Positions 37,351-46,973 of a DNA stretch of 64,000 nt are shown here, piece by piece (position 1 is the first letter of the stretch; each line of letters opens with the position of its first letter). The notes beneath the pieces are model-generated. The model was given only the letters and a program-made list of their open reading frames with translations. It did no database searches and was not told the origin of the DNA. Source of the DNA: Psococerastis gibbosa (Eukaryota > Arthropoda > Insecta > Psocodea > Psocidae); the NCBI GenBank assembly GCA_963971405.1, contig OZ020489.1:18440290-18504289 (forward strand). The letters run 5' to 3'. Both the position numbers and the translations under genes were made by a program.

Positions 37351-37433
37351 AAGGTGGGGATTCCACCGACCGGCTAGGGCTAAATACAAAAACGGTGACG
37401 TGGTAGCAGACATTCAAGACTTAGGCGGGGTTT

Positions 37434-38701
37434 CCACCGACCTCGCATTGCAGAATGCAAATGACATTGACGGAAATGTTTGTTTTACTTTATGCCATAG
37501 TTAAAATTGATCAATGATCATACAGTTAAATCACAAACAAACAAACTAAAATTAAAAATAAATGTCATGGGATATGTTAAGTATAAACATTTTAATCTTC
37601 TTCTTCTTCTTCTTCTCGTGCCCCTTCAACGTTGAAGATTAGCGATCATATGAGCGATTTGCACCTTAGACACGGCTGCGCGGAAGAGGCCTGTCGTGCT
37701 CCTCCCGAACCAACCCCTAAGGTTGGCCAGCCAGGACGTCCGTCTTCTACCTGCGGTTCTTCTCCCCTCAATGCGCCCTTCGCCCTTGTATGATGAGTTG
37801 GAGAAGGTGATATTTCTCATTCCGCATCACGTGTCCAAAGTACTGCAGCTTCCTCTTCTTTACGGAGATTAATAAAGTTCGCTGGGTCCCCACTCTATTG
37901 AGTATTTCCTCGTTTCGTATGTGATCTCGCCAGGATATTTTAAGCAGTCGGCGATACACCCACATTTCAAAGGCGTCGATTTTGTTTTCAAGCCGCTATG
38001 TGAGGGTCCAACCCTCCATCCCATATAAGACAATTGGAAACACATAGCATCTCACCATTCTCACCCGCAGATCAAGTGATAGAGTTCTGTCACAAAAGAC
38101 TTTCCTCATTCTAGTAAACACACTTCGGGCCTGTTCAATGCGACTGCTGACTTCTTGCTTCATACTCCAGTTCTCATTCACAACGCATCCAAGATATTTA
38201 AAATGTGGCACTTGTTCAATTGGCTCTCCATTAAGGTTTAGGAGTACAGGGTGGTGTGGGACCTGCTTGGAGATGACCATGACCTTGGTCTTCTTAACGT
38301 TAATTCTTATGCCATATCTCTGACAGGCCCGGTCTACCTTATTAACTAACGCCTGCAGCTCCTCTGACGTAGATGCTATGAGCGCAGTGTCATCGGCGTA
38401 CCTGAGGTTATTTATAAGCTGTCCATTGACTGATATGCCTTCAGGGGAACCATCTAGCGCCTCCGCCATGATCTTCTCTGAGTACAGGTTAAAGAGGGTT
38501 GGAGATATCACACATCCTTGCCTTACCCCGCGCCTGATCTTTATCACGTTGGTCTCACCGCCATCGATCAGTACAGTTGCGACTTGTTGCCAATACAGAC
38601 TCGCTATGGCCCCATTTTAATAGATTTCTATAAAAAGAAAAATTCTAATTTCCGTCAATGTCATTTGCATTGTGCAATGTGAGGTCGGTGGAAACCCCGC
38701 C
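37434..38701. mobile_element. MITE family E inside MITE C, itself split by a LINE
   Basis: The inverted ends GGCGGGGTTTCCACCGACCT and its complement continue through CGCATTGCAGAATGCAAATG and ACATTGACGGAAAT. TA flanks it on both sides (37432-37433, 38702-38703). Its interior holds the reverse complement of the core shared with family F (CATGGGATATGT, GATCAATGATCATACAGT). The LINE at 37597-38612 sits inside it. Confidence 0.85.
37597..38612 (-). mobile_element. 5'-truncated LINE with reverse transcriptase domain, 9-bp target duplication
   Basis: Minus-strand frames 38547-37996 and 37965-37626 encode the palm of a non-LTR reverse transcriptase. They include GVRQGCVISPTLFNLYSEKI, the catalytic YADD in NNLRYADDTALIA and RINVKKTKVMVIS, then WVYRRLLKISWRDHIRN and [20 protein letters not shown] frame change near 37970 and an early C-terminal shift show decay. 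The 3' tail (AAG)n lies at the left. CATTTTAAT flanks it (37588-37596, 38613-38621). It belongs to the same family as 8755-9185 and 53925-54160. Confidence 0.9.
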
Positions 38702-38804
38702 TAAGTCTTGAATGTCTGCTACCACGTCACCGTTTTTGTATTAAGCCCTAGCCGGTCGGTGGAATCGGCGTCTTACAAGTAGGCTGGCTACCTTAGTAGA
38801 CTCA

Positions 38805-39055
38805 TAGACTCGTATCTGTACTTGGTTAAGTCATGCTTTCACCTGTTTCATTGTGTCAATGGTAAGCTTGTCCATTATCGCTTGTAGCCGGTGTAGGTTG
38901 CCATCGAGAACGTATACCAGTTTGCCAATGGCCCAAAATTCATACGGAAACAATACAAATCATGTCCGAAATCCATGGGGTCGTTGGCATTGGACAAGGG
39001 ACCTATGGGCCACTATATGGTAAGTAGGTCTGGGTCCATAAAAAGTCCTTAAAAA
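38805..39055 (-). mobile_element. family P element, copy
   Basis: The minus strand starts AAGGACTTTTTATGGACCCA and continues GTGGCCCATAGGTCCCTTGT, CCAATGCCAACGACCCCATG and GGCTACAAGCGATAATGGAC, then TTGACACAATGAAACAGGTG. It lies 35 bp beyond the interrupted MITE C. Confidence 0.65.
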
Positions 39056-39059
39056 ATTA

Positions 39060-39840
39060 CAATCCAATTACAATACAATTACAATAGGTAGTAGACTCAC
39101 AGTCCAACTGACCAACAATATTCATATATTATATTATTATTGTAATATTCATACCAACAGCAATTACAATTAATACAAACACCGCAAGGCAATGGCCGCT
39201 GTGCGGTTTAACGTGTTGGTTACCTGTCTAAACAAATAAAAACATATAAAATGCGTCCAGTATCAAAATGTTAAAATGATTAAATAAAAACAAAAACACA
39301 ATGTAGACAAGGACATTTAAATCAGAGGGGGGGGGGGATCGTATAGGCACTGTACGTAATTTTCAGCCGTTTTTCCAATTAAAGTTTAATTCCAAAAAGT
39401 GGTAGGTTCTAATATTTCTTGCTAGTTACAGACAAACTTACAGAAAAACTTTTATTCAGTTGAAGCCCTCGTTTCTACTTTCTTGCAGCTACCTCCTACT
39501 TCCGCAGGACTATTGACTAACAAAACGTCTGCCGTTAAAAAAAAAAAAAAACGCCGGAACTTATTTAATTCGACTCAAAAATTAGAAAACAACGCTTGGT
39601 TACTTTTAAAATTACAAATTACTTTATCATAGAAAATGAAAAGGAAAAAACTTGGAACTATTTAATTAAAACAATTATTAATTACTTTTCAAGTTGAAGC
39701 AAGTTGCGCGCGTTTTTTCCGTAATTAAAAACTGAATCCCTTGGCCGGGGAGCTTGGATCTCCAAGATTTCTTCGGACGCTTTCCCCTAAACGCAGTTCT
39801 GGCTCTATCGGCCTTTCTCTTATTAGGCTGCATATTTATA
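39060..39840. other. non-coding stretch
   Basis: A G-run lies at 39329 and an A-run at 39537. The block 39420-39830 is not repetitive within the window and has a dense, moderately GC-rich end (GGAGCTTGGATCTCCAAGAT, a palindrome-like GGAGCTTGGATCTCC). No gene recognised. Confidence 0.4.
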
Positions 39841-45665: not shown

Positions 45666-45669
45666 AAAA

Positions 45670-45850
45670 TACACATACACCCCAAAAGCAGTTTAAAAAA
45701 TCTCAAAATCGGCTCCTATGATTTTTTTTTTATTTTTAATTCAAGCATATTAATGTAGTCGTGATTATAAAAAAAATGCACAGGTCGCTTCCCCCTTGAC
45801 AGTTTTGTTCTGGGACAAAAAAAAAAGACAAAACTATGACTAACCAATAA
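45670..45850 (-). repeat. family K repeat, fragment
   Basis: It has CTCAAAATCGGCTCCTATGA, GTAGTCGTGATTATAA, AATGCACAGGTCGCTTCCCC and CTTGACAGTTTTGTTCTGGG, parallel to 50180-50290 and 62090-62175. Orientation is nominal. Confidence 0.55.
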
Positions 45851-46606
45851 TATTGCTTGTAATAATATAGCCCATCCTCTCTTATTATCTTAAGGTGTTA
45901 AATAGCCCCAGAGTAAAAAAAAACACGTGTCTCCGTCAGGTTTTGGCTGTTCTCGTCATTTTGATAATGTGGCCGCCTCTAACACCGATATTCAAAATTG
46001 ATTACAACAAAAAATGATTGGTAAGGCTTCCGGATATGGAAGGTATTTAAAAAGGACCCCCATATAATATCAAAATGTAAAGAAGTATTTTTCTAATGCC
46101 TATAATATGTTTATAGCTCCACAATGAAAATTTCTTGTGTAACTCGACTTTGTACAATAAACTAGTTGTTATGGTCTATTTCACCATGTAGGAGGCCGTA
46201 TATACAATAGAATACAAAGATTAAACATCCAATACATATTAAAACACTTACCCTAATCGCATTCTTGTAGTTGCTCTCTTACTATCTTCTTTGGGAGTTC
46301 TTTCTTCTTTCGTCTGGTAACTGAAAATTGTCCTCTAAGTCGCCGTTACAAGTCTTTTATCACTTCAGGGAGCCTACCCATCAGTAGTCTAAAAGACATG
46401 TAACTAGCGCTCTGATTGGCTAATAATGACGCACAATTGATGACAGCAGGCTATAGGTACACGGGTACACATGTGTATTACCTTTAGACCTAGCTGCCCA
46501 GAGTGAATCATTATTATGCCATTTAGGACAAGTGTCAGCACAACAGAGTACCGATGGGGTCCGATTTGCCCTTAATACGATTTCATATCGCCGGATATGC
46601 AGCCCC
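45850..46606. other. unique non-coding stretch
   Basis: No repeat of this window and no gene recognised. The minus-strand 83-residue frame (46420-46671) runs into the MITE and is rejected. Confidence 0.45.
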
Positions 46607-46610
46607 TTAA

Positions 46611-46973
46611 GGCGCCCATTCCATTGACCGGCTAGGGCTATTTCCAACAACGGTGACGTGGTAGCAGACATTCAAGACTTAGGTGGCGTTTCCACCGACC
46701 TCGCATTGCAGAATGCAAATGACATTGACGGAAATTAGAATTTTTCTTTTTATAGAAATCTATTAAAATGTTTGTACTTAACATATCCCATGACGCCATT
46801 TTTTAATTTTAGTTTGTTTGTTTGCGATTTTACTGTATGATCATTGATCAATTTTAACTATGGCATAGAGGAAAATAAACATTTCCGTCAATTTCCGCCA
46901 CCTAAGTCTTGAATGTCTGCTACCACGTCACCGTTGTTGGAAATAGCCCTAGCCGGTCAATGGAATGGGCACC
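46611..46973. mobile_element. palindromic MITE family C, second copy interrupted at its centre
   Basis: The left half begins GGCGCCCATTCCATTGACCG, and the right half ends CGGTCAATGGAATGGGCACC. TTAA lies directly outside both ends (46607-46610, 46974-46977). The halves break at the same CAAGACT-TA centre as the 37.35-kb copy, with family E between them. Confidence 0.9.
46682..46902. mobile_element. MITE family E inside MITE C, second copy
   Basis: The left end is GGTGGCGTTTCCACCGACCT continuing through CGCATTGCAGAATGCAAATG. The right end is cut down to CATTTCCGTCAATTTCCGCCACC, having lost about 35 bp of the terminal repeat. TA flanks both sides (46680-46681, 46903-46904). The interior includes AACATATCCCATGACGCCAT and TTTTAACTATGGCATAGAGG. 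Confidence 0.85.

Follow-up and report, generated by a model that had tools for sequence, protein, structure and literature searches.

Layered transposon repeats are usually known only as end products. Foldback elements such as FB-NOF, for example, have long inverted arms and an inner element with inverted repeats of its own. Composite structures have also been described among MITEs: in CMITE-IN of Acropora corals, a small prototype element took up a MITE between its two repeats, and the composite is mobile (PMC2872659, in the part of the source available), and AgaP2-P12MITE of Anopheles, built from two subfamilies, is called a composite MITE in the available part of its description (PMC1562414). 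Here we describe C[E], a repeat of the insect Psococerastis gibbosa in which a palindrome (C) is split at its centre by another (E). C[E] is very probably one non-coding MITE built from two nested members of a single MITE family, and likely intermediates of its assembly persist within one genome.

Nested palindromes in the window

The window is the whole stretch of DNA that was analysed, 64,000 nucleotides of assembly GCA_963971405.1 (contig OZ020489.1, positions 18,440,290 to 18,504,289, forward strand), and coordinates are counted from its first letter. Two loci, locus 1 (37353-38772) and locus 2 (46611-46973), consist of palindrome C with 71-bp arms, interrupted by E. In locus 1 the left arm (37353-37423, forward) and the right arm (38702-38772, reverse) enclose E at 37424-38701; in locus 2 the arms lie at 46611-46681 (forward) and 46903-46973 (reverse), and the E between them (46682-46902, forward) has one of its two ends shortened. 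A first-pass annotation made from the sequence alone had C split by E at the same central base in both loci, and the break is indeed CAAGACTTA[E]TAAGTCTTG in each; its start for locus 1 stands, but the end lies at 38772 and not at 38770. It had also recorded a third copy of C without E, found here at 30048-30180 (C3, centre CAAGTCTTG) and taken as a rare E-loss derivative, and had rightly described the outer ends as different (GGTGGGGATT/GACGCCGATT at one locus and GGCGCCCATT/GGTGCCCATT at the other). What it did not remark is that the same tip opens both C and E. This tip, GGYGNNNWTTCCAC, occurs 24 times in the window with at most one mismatch (2.56 expected; maximum of 100 shuffles, 8). Nine elements were read from these 24 tips, and two or three single tips may be there by chance.

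Locus 1 is long because a 1016-base piece of a retrotransposon (37597-38612, reverse strand) sits in its E, flanked by two copies of CATTTTAAT (37588-37596 and 38613-38621). Comparison of ten open reading frames from the window with Pfam gave one match over the cut-off, a reverse transcriptase (PF00078, E-value 5.2e-19) encoded in this piece at 37996-38547 (reverse strand); it is the sole domain found inside the two loci.

Relatives of these palindromes occur in the window as well. Two that share the core (GACGTGG.AGCAG.CATT) but have other arms and no E lie at 12771-12908 and 12967-13106, and a third related palindrome, with the same tip and TTA on either side, lies at 32176-32311. A layered relative at 16329-16714 (E-like middle, other ends, a further inner tip at 16401) has a second copy at 40042-40456 (left end damaged, inner tip at 40099) and a third at L044:258-697, and may be a second nested unit. 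At 23175-23936 a 153-bp inverted repeat (80% complementary) surrounds one of 87 bp (93%), and the pair may be a further nested palindrome; several inverted repeats overlap within 2 kb at 17613-19582; and facing copies at 13358-13403 and 14007-14052 contain a sequence like the tRNA B box and are possibly two tRNA-derived SINEs in opposite orientation. The core arm had no matches in viral contigs.

A high-copy unit and its outer ends

The junction between C and E, searched with up to two mismatches, occurs at 20,595 places in the 409-Mb assembly (reversed control: 0), a count that, like the others given here, depends on the patterns and mismatch limits used. A complete copy has two junctions, and there are therefore at least about 10,000 copies of C[E], which is about 384 bp long with 71-bp arms and makes up roughly 1% or more of the genome. 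A small part of these copies was read. The first 30 junctions listed (one contig, all exact matches) belong to 26 distinct elements, 25 of which have the order C arm, E, C arm, and one of which is one-sided. A search with C3 as the query gave 28 loci: 24 two-armed composites, two with one arm and two without E (C3 and L004). The one-armed L010 and L011 were excluded from the junction reading of this sample, from the shared-variant test and from the count of flanks in 31 elements described below. One junction is found in all two-armed composites read, and E at scattered positions within C was not seen. These results support the earlier suggestions that a single mobile unit carries both nested sets of terminal repeats, and that two independent hits on the same base are unlikely: the junction recurs thousands of times, and C[E] spreads as one unit. 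The elements diverge from their consensus by 1.3 to 12.3% (27 elements), and C[E] carries the marks of a MITE: it is short and non-coding, and has terminal inverted repeats, a high and homogeneous copy number and a target-site duplication of fixed length. Outer sites that are polymorphic for the presence of C[E] were not seen, which is a point against the explanation favoured here.

The flanks of 31 elements (15833-16010 and 40042-40456, each with one end damaged, were left out) match over 3 bp in 17 cases, where shuffles gave a mean of 4.7 and a maximum of 12, and 3 bp is the only one of the duplication lengths tested that stands out. In an arm-independent sample, from which the one-sided L048 was excluded, the 3-bp flanks match in 15 of 25 elements, and 11 of those 15 are TTA or TAA; the ten that do not match comprise six inverted pairs (such as TAA...TTA) and four that are neither. 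Part of the outer duplications are ATA/TAT. With both samples pooled, TWA accounts for 13 of 30 duplications, the first sample being biased by a query with one flanking base at each end, and the 30 matching cases show a tendency towards the target C-TWA-G, whose symmetry is built in because strands were pooled. Given these outer 3-bp duplications, C[E] moves by its outer ends. Two other modes of insertion were rejected: piggyBac-type insertion at TTAA (4-bp flanks match in only one of the 31 elements) and insertion without duplication, as in Spy (AAA|TTT target), which the 3-bp duplication rules out.

The transposase of C[E] is likely of the PIF/Harbinger type. No transposase carrying the tips of C[E] was found, which also counts against the favoured explanation. 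The PF13359 (DDE transposase) profile gave 150 scored matches in the genome. Many of these matches have long open frames and tied scores, and the set suggests young PIF/Harbinger-like families. Partial elements were also seen. In L030:720-1028, E with one outer arm runs from the left tip of E to the outer right tip and has TAC on both sides; in this single case the inner tip may have served as an end too. E again has one outer arm in L082:223-538 (the left arm is lost) and the inner tip stands at the element's end, with unmatched flanks.

Host loop, insertion and probable arm-to-arm copying

The core of C occurs with other loops at 1,765 places in the genome. One loop type, GCAGACATTCAAGACTTATTAATGATGTCTGC, is uninterrupted at 617 places (up to three mismatches), and the variant CATTCAAG...GATATC makes up 29 of the roughly 100 of these that were listed. 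Twelve loop copies were fetched, ten of them picked for this variant, and nine of the twelve have arms like GGCGGGGTTTCCACCGACCTCTCATTGCAGAATGCAAATGACATTGACG, which is E's own end; we call this palindrome D. In the best pairs, D arms and E ends are identical at 49 of 49 positions (two of the 18 D arms were not parsed). The original target of E is likely the loop CATTCAAGAC-TTA-TTAATGATATC of this sibling palindrome. E adjoins the other half-loop at 11 places (up to three mismatches), all of which were fetched. Seven have the asymmetric junction CATTCAAGACTTA[E]TTATTAATGATATC or a near variant; this corresponds to the D loop with a doubled TTA, and E has the identical orientation in all seven; one locus, L087, joins C arms to the asymmetric junction. 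Three others carry the other half-loop to the left and right of E (L078 and L080 were typed by script, and L081, which the orientation and junction script missed, by eye), and the eleventh, L082, is the copy that lacks its left arm. A single orientation of E together with a direct TTA duplication at the asymmetric junctions points to one insertion, although the orientation test assumes independence under repeated insertion and is weak alone (two-sided p 1/64). E measures about 242 bp in complete copies, a length that leaves no room for a transposase gene.

The following course of events very probably connects these forms. E, with ends of about 49 bp matching the D arms, would have inserted once at the central TTA of the D loop, duplicating TTA. 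One half-loop would then have been copied over the other, turning CATTCAAGACTTA[E]TTATTAATGATATC into CATTCAAGACTTA[E]TAAGTCTTGAATG by gene conversion or template switching between the inverted arms. The outer arms would have diverged from the ends of E, from D to C, both arms jointly. The symmetric C-armed form then spread as a unit, moving by its outer tips and duplicating 3 bp of target, and now numbers at least about 10,000 copies; these fall into several subfamilies, two of which include the window loci.

Copying between arms would explain the shape of the junctions. In the common form the same half-loop stands to the left and right of E, in three B forms it is the other half that does so, and both symmetric forms, like the inverted duplications around E (TTA...TAA), are accounted for if one arm was copied onto the other; in L078, L080 and L081 the copying would have run in the opposite direction. 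The exact mirror symmetry at the junction arose after the insertion of E. The outer arms grade from D (L077, L079, L081) through D2 (L080, L084, L086), L087 (early C with the ancestral junction), L064/L072 with locus 1, and C3-like arms to locus 2-like arms. The direction from D to C is favoured because D arms equal the ends of E and C without E is almost absent. Arms of one element lie closer to each other than to shuffled partners (distance 0.072 versus 0.212, in a set chosen to span the types), and they share 72 variants where 29.3 are expected and the maximum of 3000 shuffles is 53 (27 elements); no excess appeared in the first sample, for which elements had been selected on one near-perfect C arm (13 versus 14.8). 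An arm's own partner is seldom its nearest arm (4 of 27 elements; 8 of 38 arms in the type-spanning set), and copying would therefore have taken place in source lineages and not in each copy. Conversion in every single copy was rejected, the signal of arm agreement being at the level of subfamilies.

The first-pass annotation had offered another reading, in which the hairpin tip, extruded as a cruciform, is a hot target. On this account E inserts repeatedly and independently at the loop centres of palindromic MITEs, and it would fit that E occupies one and the same position in the loop whether the arms are D, D2 or C. The site itself, a TTA in a palindrome, would fit as well, given that transposons commonly have palindromic target motifs (PMC4168063, in the part available). 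Hits on C, however, would need C-armed empty centres, and none was found; moreover, the seven asymmetric junctions share one orientation of E, and D, D2 and C arms grade into one another. We consider repeated insertion improbable. A hot tip is not needed for recurrence, since one orientation in seven of seven fits a single event; what remains of the idea is that in this event E did enter a palindrome's loop, at a TTA such as this family duplicates, and a preference for the loop is possible for that event.

The searches for empty centres also bear on whether C was an independent palindromic family that E entered directly, leaving C3, L004 and L044 as empty copies. These three C-armed elements without E do exist, but genome searches for the symmetric target CAAGACTTAAGTCTTG (up to three mismatches) and for one centred on CTTAG found 0 places each, and neither search turned up a product of precise E loss from the symmetric form. 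Only two places in the genome have a short C-armed palindrome whose inner arms match exactly, and the centre of C3 occurs nowhere else in it (up to three mismatches), so that C3 was rejected as an empty site. L044:1460-1604, with arms of the locus-1 kind, has the centre CAAGGCTTAGACTTAGTCTTG, unlike those of C3 and L004, and is perhaps an imprecise loss of E. C without E is almost absent from the genome, and the ancestral loop occurs with D arms, a sequence common to the ends of E; an independent C is thus a still more remote prospect than repeated insertion. A copy of E without C was seen in L026. The two window loci might, given the same nested build 9 kb apart, be taken for a segmental duplication, which the annotation had already doubted. 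Their flanks differ, which refutes this. In a tree of 27 whole elements, L064, L071 and L072 group with locus 1 (support 0.995), and locus 2 belongs to a separate group of 12 (0.807), in which L061 and L066 are its nearest neighbours, though weakly supported (0.178). We give segmental duplication practically no credence; membership in two subfamilies explains why outer ends and flanks differ between the loci.

Under the single insertion that we prefer, the success of the symmetric form calls for comment. The TTA/TAA form has 20,595 junctions (up to two mismatches), against 11 places for the other half-loop (up to three mismatches, different pattern). Copying between arms might, as a tentative and rather doubtful idea, have locked E in and so made C[E] outgrow its parents: E would no longer be excised once TTA/TTA had become TTA/TAA, and inner and outer ends would cease to compete as the outer arms diverged, both of which we likewise regard as speculative. 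Age alone could explain the excess of the TTA/TAA form and the absence of E-loss products. Transposition of mPing in yeast is lower when its flanks are the unmatched TTA/TAA than when they match (PMC4561436, in the part available), and this makes the locking of E testable.

C[E] is a case of two mobile elements becoming one, with inverted arms that co-evolve around an insert, and the likely stages that survive run from the uninterrupted host through the asymmetric insertion, copying in two directions and outer arms that change by degrees to the amplified form. It also shows that what looks like the same base hit twice within a window can be a single event, copied thousands of times over.

Comparison with known systems

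No description of the C[E] unit was found in open-licence PMC papers. The absence of a target duplication in Spy and the TTAA duplication of piggyBac-like MITEs do not agree with the flanks of C[E], and an inner E of about 242 bp does not correspond to a coding inner element like that of FB-NOF. AgaP2-P12MITE joins one end from each subfamily, with nesting not described in the available part of its source, whereas C[E] is nested. Galileo foldback elements (PMC4168063, available part) resemble C[E] in their long inverted arms and palindromic target motif, but their duplications are longer (7 bp versus 3 bp); more generally, FB-NOF and Galileo are larger, with coding members and longer duplications, while in C[E] guest and host have the same ends.

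C[E] is a candidate member of the Tourist-like PIF/Harbinger MITEs, which, in the available parts of two sources (PMC4482050, PMC4561436), share with it the 3-bp duplication, GG tips, short length, lack of coding capacity and high copy number. C[E] differs from them in its nested, two-layer build and in having some duplications that are ATA/TAT or unmatched. The target C|TNA|G given for the NuwaII group of the PHIS superfamily in the same partial source (PMC4482050) resembles the C-TWA-G tendency of C[E]. The nearest precedent found is CMITE-IN, which, as far as the available part of its description goes, is like C[E] in having an insert within a small element and in being itself mobile as a composite. 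CMITE-IN has a TTAA duplication, a relation to piggyBac, direct repeats round the insert and an estimated copy number of about 70 in A. millepora; C[E], in contrast, has a 3-bp duplication, inverted arms that became symmetric later, a guest and host of one family, and at least about 10,000 copies.
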